This document shows positions 9,897-51,400 of a stretch of 64,000 nt of DNA, piece by piece (position 1 is the first letter of the stretch; each line of letters opens with the position of its first letter). The notes below the pieces were generated by a model. It did not search any database, had not been told where the DNA came from, and saw nothing but the letters and a program-made list of their open reading frames with translations. Both the position numbers and the translations under genes were made by a program. The DNA comes from Natrinema sp. SYSU A 869 (GTDB taxonomy: Archaea > Halobacteriota > Halobacteria > Halobacteriales > Natrialbaceae), in assembly GCF_019879105.1 (NCBI RefSeq), contig NZ_CP082247.1, forward strand, positions 558,001 to 622,000, given 5' to 3'.

Positions 9897-10089
9897 TTTC
9901 ATTTCGCACACGGGGTGAGGCTCTACTCACTATCTCCAACTGAATCTTCTACTGGTCATCTGCTCTATTTCATATCGCACACGGGTGCCTCTTCCGTTTG
10001 ATTTCGCCCGCGGTTAGATGTCTTTGAAATGACTCCACCTATACTGTGCCTATATCTGGTGAATTCGGAGTGTTTAACATCGCACACGG
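9897..10089 (+). repeat. Three further origin-type boxes upstream of orc1/cdc6
   Basis: Copies lie at 9897-9917 (ATTTCGCACACGGGGTG), 9968-9987 (one G shorter) and 10073-10089 (degenerate, ending CACACGG). All are on the plus strand and lack the long G-run. The last one sits about 12 bases before the orc1 TATA element, so bound initiator could repress its own gene (inference). Confidence 0.7.
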
Positions 10090-10100
10090 TACCCCACATC

Positions 10101-10108
10101 TATTTATG
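10101..10108 (+). promoter_or_regulatory. TATA element of orc1/cdc6
   Basis: TATTTATG lies 23-30 bases before the ATG at 10131, as expected for a leaderless haloarchaeal transcript. This supports the 10131 start over the longer frame beginning at 10029. Confidence 0.6.
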
Positions 10109-10130
10109 GAATGGACTGTATCCCGATAAT

Positions 10131-11477
10131 ATGGCTGACGGCGACGAACAACAGTCTCTCTCACAATCCATTAAAGGCCGTCTTCAAGAGGGGGTCCAGA
10201 ATTCTGTTTTCAAAGACAAAGGACTCCTCGACCCAGATGCCGTCATTGACGAAGACAGAATCGTTGGTCGCGATCAGCAACTGGACGATATTATCACATA
10301 CCTCCGGCCTGCCCTCCAAGGCAATCGCCCTCCGAATATGCTTCTCTACGGCCCATCTGGGACCGGAAAATCACTTATCATCAATGCTGTCTGTCAGCAA
10401 GTTCTAGAGCTGGCAAACGCTCAAGGAGATCGATTCGGCGTAATCAGAGTCAACTGCCAGACGATCAAATCCCACGACCGTGCTGTCTATCGACTCGTCG
10501 AAAGTGCAGCGATCGAGGTCGGCGTCGATCCTGGGGTTCCTGAGAGTGGTGTCTCAACTGACCAGAAACTGAATCGATTTTACGAAATTTTGAGCGAGTA
10601 TTTCGACTCTGTCATTATCATTCTCGACGAGGTGGATCTCCTTGTCGGCCGGCAACGCGAACCAAATGATGAGCCAGCATATTCGAAGTTACTCTATCAA
10701 CTCTCTCGTGCATCTCAGCTAGGCCGAATCGAAGGACACATTTCAGTCGCTGCTCTCACAAATGATCCACGGTTCATGGAGAACCTCGATGGACGAGCAG
10801 AGAGTTCATTCAATCCGCAGGATGTCGTATTCCCGGACTATGATGCGAATCAACTTCAGTCGATTCTGGGACGTCGTCGCGATGCTTACCAGGAGAATGT
10901 CCTCGAGGACGGTATCATTCCTCTCAGTTCGGCGTACGCTGCGCAGGACCACGGTGACGCACGGAAAGCGATTGACCTTTTCCGGAAAGCGGGCGAGATT
11001 GCGGATCGGCAAGGAGAAGATATGGTGCGCGAAGAGCACGTCCGTGGTGCTCAGAAAGAGGCCGAGCGCGACCGTACCTTAACACAGATGCAAGGGCTTT
11101 CGACACAGAAGAAACTCTCACTCTATGCGACTGCCGTTGTCCCTATCCACTCTCACCGAAACCTGAACGCTGTTCCGAGCACTGTTGCGTACCGAGTTTA
11201 TCAGTATATCACTGATATCCTGGATACTGACGAAAAATCGCGCGATTCCTATCTTCGATACATGAGCGAAGCGGAGACCTATAATTTTGTCACGTCAGAT
11301 AAACGAGGACGGGGCTACGGTAGCGGAGTTCATAAGGAATACACGTTCGTTGATGATCCCGAAGTAGTTGCTGAAACACTACAGTCAGATATCCGACTCG
11401 AGGAAGTGGAGCACGACGAGGACTTAGTCAAGTCCGTTGTTAACGCTCAGATCGAGGATTTCTTCGAAGGAGAATAG
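10131..11477 (+). CDS. orc1/cdc6: Orc1/Cdc6 replication initiator
   Basis: The 448-residue AAA+ protein binds origin boxes and starts replication. Walker A is GPSGTGKS (about residues 74-81), Walker B is IIILDEVD (about 162-169), and sensor 2 is in HGDARKAIDLFRKA. The C-terminal winged helix follows, with PSTVAYRVYQYI and GRGYGSGVHKEYTF. The length is normal for the family. The ATG at 10131 follows a well-placed TATA box. Nine copies of one repeat type flank the gene, five upstream (two as an inverted pair) and four downstream, so initiator and origin form one unit. It is probably the active initiator of this replicon. Confidence 0.95.
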   Translation: MADGDEQQSLSQSIKGRLQEGVQNSVFKDKGLLDPDAVIDEDRIVGRDQQLDDIITYLRPALQGNRPPNMLLYGPSGTGKSLIINAVCQQVLELANAQGDRFGVIRVNCQTIKSHDRAVYRLVESAAIEVGVDPGVPESGVSTDQKLNRFYEILSEYFDSVIIILDEVDLLVGRQREPNDEPAYSKLLYQLSRASQLGRIEGHISVAALTNDPRFMENLDGRAESSFNPQDVVFPDYDANQLQSILGRRRDAYQENVLEDGIIPLSSAYAAQDHGDARKAIDLFRKAGEIADRQGEDMVREEHVRGAQKEAERDRTLTQMQGLSTQKKLSLYATAVVPIHSHRNLNAVPSTVAYRVYQYITDILDTDEKSRDSYLRYMSEAETYNFVTSDKRGRGYGSGVHKEYTFVDDPEVVAETLQSDIRLEEVEHDEDLVKSVVNAQIEDFFEGE

Positions 11478-13389: not shown

Positions 13390-13713
13390 ATGGTCGAGCA
13401 AACCATAATTGACCGCCTCGAGAAAGAGGTTGATGTTCTCAATCGGCATTTAGAGGTATTCGTACTCGTTTGGCAGGCTGAACCAATTGGCATCGTCAAG
13501 TTATCTAATCGGACTGGTCTCCCGCATCACAAGATTCGATACTCGCTGCGCGTTCTTGAGGAAGAAGACATCATCGAACCGTGTCCAACAGGTGCAATGA
13601 CGACGGATCACGCTCAGCAATTCGTCGAGACGCTAAATAATGAGCTGACAGCAGTGATCGACACGTTAGGCGGTCTGAAGATTTCCGAGTCAGAGGAGAT
13701 TCAATCGGCATGA
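13390..13713 (+). CDS. Winged-helix protein coupled to tyrosyl-tRNA synthetase
   Basis: The 107-residue protein has an N-terminal helix and a winged-helix core (EPIGIVKLSNRTGLPHHKIRYSLRVLEEEDII), then a C-terminal helix. A TATA-like TTTATATG lies about 25 bases before the ATG. Its stop overlaps the tyrS start by four bases (ATGA), so the two are translated together. It may control expression of the synthetase or of itself. The gap 13173-13389 is AT-rich promoter sequence. Confidence 0.7.
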   Translation: MVEQTIIDRLEKEVDVLNRHLEVFVLVWQAEPIGIVKLSNRTGLPHHKIRYSLRVLEEEDIIEPCPTGAMTTDHAQQFVETLNNELTAVIDTLGGLKISESEEIQSA

Positions 13714-14693
13714 ATACCTACGAGTTACTCACGCGGAATACGGAAGAAGTCGTCACCGAGCAAGAGGTACGTGAACTCGCCGATGACCTCGCAGACAAAC
13801 GAGTCTACGTTGGCTACGAACCGTTCGGTGTCCTCCATCTCGGCCACCTTCTGACGGCGAACAAACTCATCGACCTGCAGGACGCAGGGATGGATGTCGT
13901 CATCCTGCTTGCAGACGTTCACGCACATCTCAACGGGAAGGGCAGTTTCGAGGAGATTCACGAGACAGCGGAGCGAATGAAGACACAGTTCGTCGCATAC
14001 GGTCTCGACGAAGACAAGACCGAATACGTCTACGGGTCCGAGTTCCAACTCGAAGTGTACTACTCGCTCGATCTGCACGAACTCGGCGTCTCGATGACGC
14101 TCAACCGCGCCCAGCGAGCGGTCGCCGAACTCCAGAGCGGCAAAACTGCAACGGTGAGCCACACAGTGTACCCATTGATGCAGGTACTCGATTTCGAGTT
14201 CCTCGGTATCGACCTCGCCGTCGGCGGAACCGATCAACGGAAAGTCCACATGCTCGCCCGAGAAAAACTGCCGGAGTTGGGATACGAGGCGCGACCGTGT
14301 TTGCACACGCCCATCCTCGCCGATCTCGAAACTGGCGAGGGCAAGATGTCGTCAAGCGAGGGAACGACGATCTCCATGGAAGACTCTACTGCAGACATTG
14401 AGCGGAAGATCGAGTCGGCATTTTGTCCCCCAACTCGTGATCCTGAAGGAAACCGTGAGAATCCCGTCCTTCAGTTGTTCGAGTATTACGTGTTTCCGCG
14501 ATTCGAGTCGGTGACCGTGAGACGGCCCGAAAAGTACGGTGGAAATCGCATGTACGAGTGCTACGACGATCTTGCAGCAGCGCTCGAAACAGGAGAACTT
14601 CATCCAGCAGATGCAAAAGAGACAGCTGCTTGCTATCTTGACGAATTAATCTCTCTAGGTCGTAAGAAACTCCGCGATCTTACGAGCAAATAA
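13710..14693 (+). CDS. tyrS: Tyrosyl-tRNA synthetase, accessory copy
   Basis: The 327-residue archaeal-type class I enzyme should charge tRNA-Tyr with tyrosine. HLGH (residues 43-46) and KMSSS (212-216) are the class I signatures. Tyr154, Gln158 and Asp161 in VYPLMQVLD match tyrosine-binding positions of archaeal TyrRS. The usual EPSG before the HIGH motif is EPFG here. The setting between remnants, and the coupling to a winged-helix gene, suggest this is an extra copy and not the housekeeping enzyme, perhaps for resistance to a tyrosine analogue or inhibitor (inference). Confidence 0.9.
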   Translation: MNTYELLTRNTEEVVTEQEVRELADDLADKRVYVGYEPFGVLHLGHLLTANKLIDLQDAGMDVVILLADVHAHLNGKGSFEEIHETAERMKTQFVAYGLDEDKTEYVYGSEFQLEVYYSLDLHELGVSMTLNRAQRAVAELQSGKTATVSHTVYPLMQVLDFEFLGIDLAVGGTDQRKVHMLAREKLPELGYEARPCLHTPILADLETGEGKMSSSEGTTISMEDSTADIERKIESAFCPPTRDPEGNRENPVLQLFEYYVFPRFESVTVRRPEKYGGNRMYECYDDLAAALETGELHPADAKETAACYLDELISLGRKKLRDLTSK

Positions 14694-24488: not shown

Positions 24489-24748
24489 GTGCCCCAGACT
24501 AAAGGCGGACTGGATGCGCTGGATGAGCCGGCAACGGAAATCCCGTCCCAGACTGATGTGATCCAGTTTGACGATATCATGATGCGATTAAGGCGATCGA
24601 TCAACTCAGCGATCCGGACGTCCTTGCCGAGATCGCCGAGTACCGTAGTCCGCTCGAGAGCGACGAACCACTTACCGTTCGAGAGGCGGTTGCAGAAGCG
24701 ATCGACATCGACATGTCGACAGTCAAATGTACGCTCACCTCTATCTGA
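24489..24748 (+). pseudogene. Conserved small protein upstream of ParA, frameshifted
   Basis: A GTG start gives KGGLDALDEPATEIPSQTD and VIQFDDIM. With one base restored in ATCATGATGCG near 24588, it continues AIDQLSDPDVLAEIAEYRSP and EPLTVREAVAEAIDIDMSTV to TGA 24746-24748. The C-terminal part looks like a short HTH. Its place before the ParA operator suggests a part in partition or its control. Confidence 0.45.
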
Positions 24749-24795
24749 TCACACCTTGTTGTCGGACTTGAGGTCCTTTCCAAATGGGCCTAAGA

Positions 24796-24890
24796 CTCAG
24801 ATCTAAGATTCTTAGATTAGTCTCTTAGGTAACTCACTTAGCTATCACTCTTAGATAACTTGTCTGACGTACTTTCTTATCTTAGTAACT
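24796..24890 (+). repeat. 13-bp iteron array before ParA (candidate operator or centromere)
   Basis: CTTAG starts at 24811, 24824, 24837 and 24850, exactly 13 bases apart, with consensus CTTAGnTAnCnCT. A near match lies at 24796 (CTCAG) and another copy at 24881. The last overlaps the presumed TATA region of ParA. Regular direct repeats upstream of parA are typical of partition sites and operators. Confidence 0.65.
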
Positions 24891-24904: not shown

Positions 24905-25780
24905 ATGCTCTCGTATACGGTGTACTCGGAGGCCGGCGGCGTTGGGAAATCGTCGCTGACAGCGAACCTGGCGGTCGCGCACGCTCGAGCCGGACTCGAC
25001 GTGCTGGTCGTCCCACTAGATCCACAGGACGGCGACCTCAGCCGACTGCTTGGCGTCGACAGTGATCGGGACAGCAGCGATGCGGACAACCTCGTGCGAC
25101 ACATGGTCAACGCCCCGAAGGGGCCGTTTGAAGACCTGATCCGAACCGCAGAGGGCGTCGACATCGTCCCGGAGCACAACATGCTCTCGGACCTCGCCGA
25201 CCACCTCGCTCGAGAACAGAAGAAGGCCGAGGACTTCGGCGATGCGTACAACATCTATGCCCAGCTGCAGCGCGTCCTCCAGGAAGCCGGCGTCGGCGAT
25301 GACTACGACGTTCTGATCTGTGACCCGCCGGCGACCGAATCGGACCACCTCTACAACGCGATCTTCGCGACGCGGAACCTCGTGATTCCTGTCGAGCCCT
25401 CGGCGAAGGGACGGGCTTCGGTCGAGGGCCTCGAGGAACTCGCGACGAACTTCGCCGACCAGCTGAACATCGACGTCGGTGTCCTGGCTGCAGTGCCGAA
25501 CGGGTTCAAACGAACGAACGACCAGAAGGAGCTCATCGACGAGATCGAGTTCCCGACGCCGGAGGTGCTTGGCGACCGGACGTCGCTGCTCGAGGGCTGC
25601 TGGAAAGAGCAGTGCTCCGCGTTCACGTACGAGCGGGATCATCGCGACTACCCGCGTGATCACGAGCTCGAGACGCTCGCCCAGTTCGATCGCCTCGCAC
25701 GATATCTCGAAGCCGAGGCTGGCCTCGAGGCACCAAACGCGCCAGAGCCCGGTGAACTCGAGCACGGGGTGGAGGCATGA
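24905..25780 (+). CDS. parA: ParA-family partition ATPase
   Basis: The 291-residue protein has the deviant Walker A of ParA/MinD proteins (SEAGGVGKSSLTANLA), the VPLDPQDGDLSRLLG segment and the later DVLICDPPATES Walker B region. It should drive plasmid segregation using ATP and nonspecific DNA binding. ATG 24905 puts the Walker motif near the N-terminus, with a TATA-like CTTATCTTA about 25 bases before it. A helical protein gene overlaps its end. Confidence 0.9.
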   Translation: MLSYTVYSEAGGVGKSSLTANLAVAHARAGLDVLVVPLDPQDGDLSRLLGVDSDRDSSDADNLVRHMVNAPKGPFEDLIRTAEGVDIVPEHNMLSDLADHLAREQKKAEDFGDAYNIYAQLQRVLQEAGVGDDYDVLICDPPATESDHLYNAIFATRNLVIPVEPSAKGRASVEGLEELATNFADQLNIDVGVLAAVPNGFKRTNDQKELIDEIEFPTPEVLGDRTSLLEGCWKEQCSAFTYERDHRDYPRDHELETLAQFDRLARYLEAEAGLEAPNAPEPGELEHGVEA

Positions 25781-26193
25781 CGGGCTTCAAGAGTGGGAGC
25801 GCCGGCGACCCCTTCGGCGATGACGATCGCGAGGAAGACGACGAGGAGGAGCTGACGGAGACGTCGTCGACGGCAATCGATACGGAGTCCAACACCGATC
25901 GCGACGACGATCGTGACGACGCGAGCAGCGGGACGTCGCCCAGTCCCTCGAGTGGCGGCCTTCCCTGGATCTACGAGCGCAACAGTATCACGGACGGGCG
26001 GGCACAGACTGTCCAGTTGCATCTTCAGCAGTCGACGCTCGATCGCCAGCGTGAGACGAGGACCGGTGTTGAGACCGCTCTTGGGGAGGCCGTCAAGAAG
26101 GCCGATCTTCGCGAGGCCGCGCTCCTGGTCGGCCTCGAGCACGTCGACGAGGTCGCCGACCAGCTCCGCGAGTGGGGCTACGACTTCGAGTAG
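25777..26193 (+). CDS. ParA partner protein (candidate centromere-binding)
   Basis: The 138-residue protein overlaps parA by four bases. It has a very acidic, disordered first 60 residues and a folded C-terminus (LPWIYERNSITDGRAQTVQL, DLREAALLVGLEHVDEVADQ). Haloarchaeal plasmids often carry a protein of this layout directly after ParA. A role as the DNA-binding half of the partition pair, acting on the iterons, is inferred from position. Confidence 0.6.
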   Translation: MTGFKSGSAGDPFGDDDREEDDEEELTETSSTAIDTESNTDRDDDRDDASSGTSPSPSSGGLPWIYERNSITDGRAQTVQLHLQQSTLDRQRETRTGVETALGEAVKKADLREAALLVGLEHVDEVADQLREWGYDFE

Positions 26194-49759: not shown

Positions 49760-51400
49760 TTAGTTTTGCTGCCGACCCAAGAGCAGTGCAACGGACAAGA
49801 GGGCGACGAGAGTCACAAGGGTCCCAAAGCCGGGAACGGTATCTTCTACATCACCGTCACTGTCGCCGTTGTTGCCATTGTCGCCGTTGTTGCCATTACT
49901 AGCGTTGTTGCCATTACTAGCGTTGTTAACATTGACGGCGCTGTTGGCATTGCCAGCGTTGTTGCCATTGCCGCCATTGTTGCCATTGACAGCGTTGTTG
50001 CCGTTGCCAGCGTTGTTTCCATTGTCGCCGTTGTTGCCATTGCCAGCGTTGTTTCCATTGTCGCCGTTGTTGCCATTGCCAGCGTTGTTTCCATTGTCGC
50101 CGTTGTTGCCATTGCCAGCGTTGTTTCCATTGCCGCCGTTGTCGCCATTGCCAGCGTTGTTTCCATTGCCGCCGTTATTACCGCCTCCACCGGAGGAATC
50201 GGCCTGTAACGTTATCGTTCCAGTCGCAGTCTGCAGTTCGTCACTCGAGGAACCGGATGCGATGTGGATCCAACGGTACTCGCCTTCCGTCCAGTTTTCG
50301 TACGTTTCAACGCTAATCGTCGTTTCCGTCTCTGCCTCCTCAGCAGTAATGGAGGCATCGAGGCGACGGTCACCGGTTACGGTCGTCTGCGACTCATCGA
50401 TACCCGCATCGTTCCCGATGAATCGAACGAGGTTACCGACCTCGGAGACTCCCGTTCCGATTCCCTCATCGACGTTTTGATCGAAGAAGCCGACGTCATC
50501 CTCGACGTTATGCATGCCGTTGACATCCGCGATATCGTGCTCGATAGCCACGTCTTCGGACGAGAAGTCCGAACTCAGTTGTTCGGTGATATTGATTGTC
50601 ATCGTACTCTTGGTGAACGTCTCTTCGTCGTACAGTACGACGGCATGTGACGATTCACCGTCCAACTCGGTAGCATCGACATCGAAGTCGATTTCGTCAC
50701 CCGGCTCCGCCGAGTCGGTAACATCAACGTCCGACGGGCTATCCTGTGCAGTGATTTGCTCGAGACCAATAACCGTTGTCTCGCCGGTGATTTCGACATC
50801 CCCGTCGTCAACGGCGAGATTATCGCCCGTTGCGAGTACGTACATGTAGTGACCCGGTTCCGTCGGCTCGACGGACTGGTCGAGTTCGCCGTCAGTGAGC
50901 GTCGTACTCGTTAGCGAGAACGACATGTTATCGTTGAGAGAATCAACGTTCCCGGACGACAGTTCGTCGATAAGCGCTGGACCGGTCGTCGGAGCGCTGC
51001 CATCGCCCTCGAGATAAGCAGTTAAGAGCTGAACCTCTTCGTCGTCGAAGTTACTCGTGTCGGCCTCTTCACCGAACGAGAGCGTCGTTTCTTCGTTCGT
51101 TTGGAAGACAGAGAGCGTATCGCGGTTCAGGGTACTGTCTCCACGCTGTGTCTTCGCGTCGAGCCACAGATTGTCAGCAGTCACTGCTCCCTCAGCACTA
51201 GTATCGGCTCGTAGTGAGAGTAGTGACCGATCCCAGACTGTGACGTACTCTCCAGTCTCAATATATTCGTCGTCCGTTGCTGCCGATACATCTGTCGCAG
51301 TACCTGTACTCCCAACTGCTCCTACACTCCCAGCAACTGGAGCGAGGAGCATCATAGCACTTACGAGTAGTGCGGTGAGTAGTCGTGAATGTCTCGTCAT
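49760..51400 (-). CDS. Secreted PGF-CTERM surface protein with Asn/Gly repeats
   Basis: The 546-residue protein has a Sec signal (MTRHSRLLTALLVSAMMLLA), an extracellular beta-rich region of about 390 residues, a low-complexity stalk of about 105 residues built from 12-residue GNNGDNGNNAGN-like units, and a PGF-CTERM tail (TVPGFGTLVTLVALLSVALL) for processing by an archaeosortase. ATG 51400 places the signal at the N-terminus. The stalk is coded by 36-bp repeats at about 49866-50178. It lies directly upstream of the MacB-like exporter. Confidence 0.85.
   Translation of the reverse strand: MTRHSRLLTALLVSAMMLLAPVAGSVGAVGSTGTATDVSAATDDEYIETGEYVTVWDRSLLSLRADTSAEGAVTADNLWLDAKTQRGDSTLNRDTLSVFQTNEETTLSFGEEADTSNFDDEEVQLLTAYLEGDGSAPTTGPALIDELSSGNVDSLNDNMSFSLTSTTLTDGELDQSVEPTEPGHYMYVLATGDNLAVDDGDVEITGETTVIGLEQITAQDSPSDVDVTDSAEPGDEIDFDVDATELDGESSHAVVLYDEETFTKSTMTINITEQLSSDFSSEDVAIEHDIADVNGMHNVEDDVGFFDQNVDEGIGTGVSEVGNLVRFIGNDAGIDESQTTVTGDRRLDASITAEEAETETTISVETYENWTEGEYRWIHIASGSSSDELQTATGTITLQADSSGGGGNNGGNGNNAGNGDNGGNGNNAGNGNNGDNGNNAGNGNNGDNGNNAGNGNNGDNGNNAGNGNNAVNGNNGGNGNNAGNANSAVNVNNASNGNNASNGNNGDNGNNGDSDGDVEDTVPGFGTLVTLVALLSVALLLGRQQN

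Follow-up and report, generated by a model that had tools for sequence, protein, structure and literature searches.

A 13-bp-pitch repeat array upstream of parA as the proposed cis-acting site of a haloarchaeal plasmid partition cassette

Several described partition systems pair a ParA-type ATPase with a small ribbon-helix-helix (RHH) protein. In ParF-ParG of TP228 and delta-omega of pSM19035, the small partner combines a flexible ParA-contacting tail with an RHH domain, and a repeat array lies over the par promoter. ParG inserts its disordered tail into the ParA dimer (PMC5393062), and at least four contiguous omega repeats are needed for ParA activation (PMC9499535). In the archaeal SegAB system of Sulfolobales, the ATPase gene is overlapped by a downstream gene for SegB, a small DNA-binding protein with a disordered N-terminus and an RHH C-terminus. 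The SegB motif is a 13-bp palindrome (PMC12284271), and SegB binds palindromic sites directly upstream of segA, of which one lies at the start codon and another is centred at -59 (PMC5120986). Partition of the archaeal plasmid pNOB8 of Sulfolobus involves AspA, a small protein that recognises a specific site and spreads along DNA in helical form (PMC5120986). The segregation of several co-resident haloarchaeal megaplasmids has been little studied, and no description of a haloarchaeal plasmid centromere or par site was found in the open-access literature searched. Here we analysed 64,000 nucleotides of Natrinema sp. SYSU A 869 (the window; contig NZ_CP082247.1, positions 558,001 to 622,000, or C1:558001-622000), in which repeats at 13-bp pitch precede a parA gene. 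We propose, with a probability of about three in four, that this array acts in cis for a plasmid partition cassette of two genes, parA and an overlapping gene for a small RHH-like protein. The best reading of the sequence is a SegAB/ParFG-like cassette, with the array as its putative centromere and operator.

24785..24859, no strand: array of six pseudo-palindromic sites (CTTAGnTAAG) at 13-bp pitch, proposed parS and operator (sequence, Tandem Repeats Finder, grid score, class consensus, genome uniqueness, family periodicity)
24876..24885, no strand: further in-phase site CTTATCTTAG, including the CTTAG at 24881, with a putative functional role
24862..24881, + strand: presumed core promoter, with a B recognition element (BRE)-like GTCTGACG (24862-24869) followed by a TATA-like TTTCTTATC, recurring before parA across subfamilies

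Copies of CTTAG start exactly at 24811, 24824, 24837 and 24850, the 13-base spacing reported in the preliminary description, and Tandem Repeats Finder independently calls a 13-bp array at 24811-24860. The near copy reported at 24796 proved to be CTCAG and out of phase. Instead, inverted copies of the box (CTAAG), 13 bp apart at 24790 and 24803, extend the array; the 8-bp spacing from inverted to direct boxes seems irregular only if the box is defined as CTTAG. Folding the repeats of the 26 closest loci yields CTTAGnTAAG as the consensus, with its axis of symmetry at the G/n step (symmetry 0.378 versus 0.261 expected). Pseudo-palindromic CTTAnnTAAG sites start at 24785, 24798, 24811, 24824, 24837 and 24850; all five dyad steps are 13 bp, and the six dyads fall on one unbroken grid from 24789.5 to 24854.5. 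The further CTTAG at 24881, described earlier as overlapping the presumed promoter, lies within the CTTATCTTAG site, whose dyad at 24880.5 is 26 bp, or two grid steps, beyond 24854.5. This site overlaps the TATA-like region of parA.

With a motif picked post hoc, the six-site grid gave 37/48 matches (z = 8.7), the top score in the 64-kb window, compared with 25 for the best unrelated grid. In a motif-free test, the observed count of repeated 5-mers was reached at any lag by 98 of 20,000 region shuffles, and the window array on its own is only moderately improbable by chance. Chance is excluded because the 13-bp repeat recurs family-wide, and not by a single-locus statistic. The pattern CTTAGN8CTTAG has four matches genome-wide, all at this locus (a reversed control pattern has 26), and no further CTTAGN8CTTAG array was found elsewhere in the 5.67-Mb genome.

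The main sample, drawn from the host genome and 74 genomes of the family, comprised 110 homologous parA loci; a further 25 loci came from named genomes or viral contigs, and 26 more were distant. Periodicity, measured by counting identical 4-mers per lag in the 200 bp before parA, could be tested in 105 loci of the main sample. A peak at lag 13 appeared in every ParA subfamily, with z of 35.6 at 78-100% identity, 54.1 at 66-71%, 25.1 at 60-66%, 27.5 at 50-54%, 25.7 at 44-49% and 14.5 for the others, and lag 26 was next-highest. The per-locus maximum was at lag 13 in 70/105 loci, and at 13 or 26 in 85/105. Control regions inside parA and downstream of it gave no lag-13 peak, and a faint one was seen 400-600 bp upstream. 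The preliminary description had suggested looking for a regular repeat before homologous parA genes, and one was present in all subfamilies.

The sequence of the box varies by subfamily: CTTAG; GTTCA; CAAAC/TACAA; GTTAGnCTAAC; CAGTAnTACTG; and CTGTnACAG, the last belonging to a paralogue in the same genome (L114). In all five main classes the folded 13-bp units show more palindromic symmetry than expected, the phase of the array relative to the ATG is conserved within each class, and arrays span about 4-7 sites over 50-90 bp. Boxes of the CTTAG class do not vary, but most positions of the spacers agree at only 0.45-0.64 from one unit to the next; therefore the arrays are not recent exact duplications. 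Arrays are also present in the named plasmids pHH126 of Haloarcula hispanica (five CTTAG boxes) and pNRC200 of Halobacterium salinarum, and the gene pair of parA and its partner in pHME132 of Haloferax mediterranei. The parA family occurs in 243/392 genomes of the order and 67/95 genera, and strong matches in a scan of genome contigs were confined to haloarchaea. On three contigs from a viral collection (IMG/VR; L196, L197 and L198) the same parA is preceded by CTTAG boxes; these contigs may be plasmid-like proviruses or misclassified plasmids.

Pairs of par loci of the same box class within one genome are rarer than expected (3/47 versus 9.9; reached in 82/20,000 shuffles), and two of the three are near-identical duplicates. 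These exceptions to class avoidance lie at G057:C5 (6714 and 193003) and on contigs C3 and C6 of G072. Partition with class-specific centromeres would fit the ParA homology, the plasmid-sized contigs, the single array per locus and the avoidance of like classes.

24905..25780, + strand: parA, a ParA/MinD-type P-loop ATPase of 291 aa (Pfam AAA_31 3.8e-17, CbiA 1.7e-12; alignment; Walker A count)
25777..26193, + strand: partner protein of 138 aa, proposed centromere-binding protein (108/110 loci, alignments, models, VIA-align, specificity analysis)
26008..26028, + strand: codons for TVQLHLQ, partner residues 78-84, the predicted DNA-reading strand (best class-determined 7-residue window of the domain)

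The start codon of the partner gene overlaps the parA stop codon as ATGA, an arrangement found at 108/110 loci. The partner protein has an N-terminal motif and a conserved C-terminal domain of some 75 residues, joined by an acidic low-complexity linker that varies in length. The motif reads MTGFKSGSAGDPF in the window (MTGFKSG..DPF), with K and G invariant in the alignments, and K-x-G is present in 107/108 partners. Sequence searches left the protein unnamed: Pfam, NCBIfam, PHROGs and PDB sequences yielded nothing usable, and the partner domain had no match in phage records. A profile built from 22 partners recovered no PDB chain of a partition protein at E values up to 5, SegB sequences not being compared directly. 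AlphaFold2 predicted confident helices at 85-102, 108-121 and 123-132 after an extended strand-like segment at 78-84, with the first half disordered and of low confidence. The C-terminal domain models as beta-alpha-alpha-alpha. A single RHH chain would have this appearance, because the RHH strand pairs only in the dimer.

Owing to the disordered half, the full-length model gave weak unrelated rows only in the fold search, and the domain-only model was then used. The top VIA-align row was the RHH domain of TraM from the F plasmid (PDB 4qpo; Z 4.9, root-mean-square deviation 2.8, 51/53 residues, 12% identity). Lower rows included the antitoxin TacA2, the MazEF-mt1 antitoxin complex and TCP domains, and other DNA-binding proteins of RHH type were among those that followed TraM. 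TraM is likewise a plasmid-specific DNA-recognition protein, although it serves conjugation and not partition, and Z alone is no proof of homology. The VIA-align list was short, leaving room for fold families beyond it.

The linkage and the models point to the overlapping open reading frame (ORF) at 25777-26193 as almost certainly the array binder. The preliminary description had seen no ParB-like protein with a known DNA-binding fold encoded nearby, a statement that the RHH-like model of this ORF contradicts; it had also offered two candidate binders, and the overlapping ORF is the one that is supported. The other, a broken ORF at 24489-24806 upstream of the array whose second frame reads DAIKAIDQLSDPDVLAEIAEYRSPLESDEPLTVREAVAEAIDIDMSTVKCTLTSI, was rejected, as no other par locus resembles it in DNA or in any reading frame.

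Comparison of 96 distinct partners revealed that residues 78-84 are near-invariant within a box class and differ between classes; no other seven-residue window of the domain is as strongly determined by class. At the exposed positions 80/82/84, the residues are Q-H-Q with CTTAG, P-F-Q/K/H with GTTCA, T-F-H with CAAAC, Q-Y-R with GTTAGnCTAAC and Q-F-Y with CAGTA. The changing segment is the one that would be expected to touch bases. This is not independent proof, because box class follows phylogeny.

The ATPase scores above the Pfam thresholds for AAA_31 (63.2 bits, cut-off 27) and CbiA (47.8 bits, cut-off 25.4). The published deviant Walker A motif with signature lysine is KGGxxK[S/T] (PMC9178275), which the window protein does not match, its Walker A region reading SEAGGVGKSS (SESGG in a few homologues). 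The signature-lysine position holds Ala at 106, Ser at 3 and Lys at 1 of the 110 loci. By the published definition the family is therefore not canonical ParA, despite its Pfam scores. The P-loop begins at residue 9, with GG at residues 11-12, and no N-terminal helix-turn-helix (HTH) or other DNA-binding domain is present.

The locus resembles SegAB in its gene arrangement, with the ATPase gene overlapped by the small-protein gene that follows it, and in having pseudo-palindromic sites just before the ATPase gene. SegB sites, however, are isolated TCTAGAsTCTAGA copies scattered over the chromosome, whereas the sites here form a contiguous array at one locus per replicon, with a box that varies by class (CTTAGnTAAG and others) and is not TCTAGA-S-TCTAGA. 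SegA-SegB is also mainly chromosomal, and the haloarchaeal cassette is found mainly on plasmid-sized contigs. Lack of an N-terminal HTH in ParA and repeats arrayed at the promoter before parA are type Ib features, shared with ParF-ParG and delta-omega; a small partner with a flexible tail and an RHH domain, as the models suggest here, would be another. The omega repeats differ in being contiguous non-palindromic 7-mers of mixed orientation rather than pseudo-palindromes at 13-bp pitch, and pSM19035 has six parS sites compared with the single array in the host genome. ParF-type and delta ParAs carry the signature lysine (Lys10 in TP228 ParA), which is absent here. pNOB8 uses three genes, aspA-parB-parA, with a CenpA-like ParB C-terminus, in contrast to two genes with parA first after the array.

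A mechanism can be proposed from the published RHH systems (ParG, omega, SegB). In this pathway, partner dimers would insert a two-stranded ribbon into each pseudo-palindromic box. At 13-bp pitch, neighbouring dimers would be turned by about 86 degrees, such that after about four sites, or 52 bp and some five helical turns, the array would regain the same face and the bound dimers would spiral round the DNA. The flexible N-terminal tails (K-x-G..DPF) would contact chromosome-bound ParA and stimulate its ATPase, which would move and space the plasmid copies. Occupancy of the array would also repress parA, because the array abuts the TATA region and an in-phase site lies over it. Finally, joint divergence of box and reading strand could give each plasmid class its own address.

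The array directly precedes the promoter at a fixed phase to the ATG, places an in-phase site over the TATA region and occurs as a single copy in the genome. These features would suit an operator only, through which the partner represses or activates parA, with segregation relying on another site or on none. Two ordinary operator sites would do for this purpose, whereas about 4-7 sites over 50-90 bp are present, and the avoidance of the same box class by cohabiting loci would not be predicted. Upstream sites are described as serving partition in the omega, ParG and SegB systems (PMC9499535, PMC5120986), and the two roles are not mutually exclusive; we consider a purely regulatory array unlikely. 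The compact archaeal partition system with its own centromere envisaged earlier is supported as a par cassette with its own site array, whose service as a centromere, rather than as an operator only, we infer.

The missing signature lysine (109/110 loci) recalls McdA, a carboxysome-positioning ATPase with SGGQGKT at this position (PMC9178275), and would allow an ATPase that positions non-plasmid cargo, with the array unrelated to DNA movement. Most loci lie on plasmid-sized contigs, however, with a sequence-specific array tied to the operon and no conserved cargo genes alongside, which makes such a role quite improbable. Still less probable is that the repeats serve an initiator (Orc1/Cdc6 or Rep) as replication iterons and lie beside parA by coincidence. 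Iteron arrays are typical of plasmid origins, and an Orc1/Cdc6 gene lies in the window about 14 kb upstream (10029-11474). Across the family, however, only 7 of the fetched loci spanning at least 3 kb have an Orc1-like gene close by. The array is invariably found before parA, with a box that follows the class of ParA and partner, and the host genome has many Orc1/Cdc6 genes (21 matches) for a single array. The label "iteron" given earlier, in its replication sense, is not upheld, as initiator genes are not linked to the array. Binding of the array by ParA itself can be set aside at similarly low odds, since the protein starts directly at the P-loop with no N-terminal DNA-binding domain, and a locus with a related ParA and another partner domain has no 13-bp array (L124).

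Several points weigh against a partition cassette read by an RHH partner. Foldseek found no significant fold match for the partner and the VIA-align Z is below 5; the RHH assignment, drawn from topology, weak structural similarity and the specificity pattern, is likely. Box class tracks ParA phylogeny, so shared ancestry accounts for part of the co-variation of box and strand. Replication incompatibility could explain why like classes avoid each other, and genome sampling is another possible confounder. Without the signature lysine, the ATPase cycle may differ. A distant ParA clade with a similar partner domain has a 12-bp pitch, with lag 12 in L242, L244 and L250, and 24 and 36 too in L242 and L244.

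In favour of the proposed cassette, the 13-bp array is lacking at loci whose partner has another C-terminal domain (L124, L253, L254 and L115). In L124, L253 and L254, related ATPase genes are followed by a partner with a domain of the RQKTVSVWDG type, and other repeats surround the promoter (CTATAGG at about 12 bp; CCGTAAACG-like), constituting natural domain/array swaps.

A broader proposal is that haloarchaeal plasmids share an undescribed segregation machine, in which a lysine-less ParA acts with a fast-diverging RHH adaptor winding on a 13-bp-pitch centromere, and box and strand switch together as an incompatibility-group code; we regard its chances as even. If true, the constant pitch with co-switching box and strand would be a readable plasmid incompatibility code. 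No counterpart of the 13-bp pitch or the class-switching box was found in the open-access literature compared. The loci amount to some hundred naturally occurring candidate pairs of centromere and adaptor that have a common geometry, and their occurrence in cultured species (Halobacterium salinarum NRC-1, Haloarcula hispanica) makes archaeal incompatibility grouping, the RHH recognition code and the function of lysine-less ParA testable.

The parA ATG lies about 25-30 bp downstream of the promoter elements, and the transcript is therefore probably leaderless. A GTCTGACG-like string occurs just upstream of the TATA region in nearly all par subfamilies and also before the unrelated ParA/MinD genes L137, L175 and L178, and may be a haloarchaeal promoter element. 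As a candidate par-specific element, GTCTGACG with TTAT at five bases gave 3 exact genome matches, none with that spacing at the par locus.

The host genome is in three contigs. The one carrying the window (C1) is 891 kb and therefore a megaplasmid-sized replicon. A second ParA of the same family, 54% identical to that of the window, lies at C1:822495, and contig C2 carries two more. The par cassettes at C1:582905 and C1:822495 are of different box class, which suggests a fused megaplasmid. Elsewhere in the window, a class I tRNA synthetase gene (Trp/Tyr type, Pfam 6.1e-44) at 13710-14690 is megaplasmid-borne and near the Orc1/Cdc6 gene, and a long tandem repeat with 18/36-bp units lies inside a coding region at 49864-50176.
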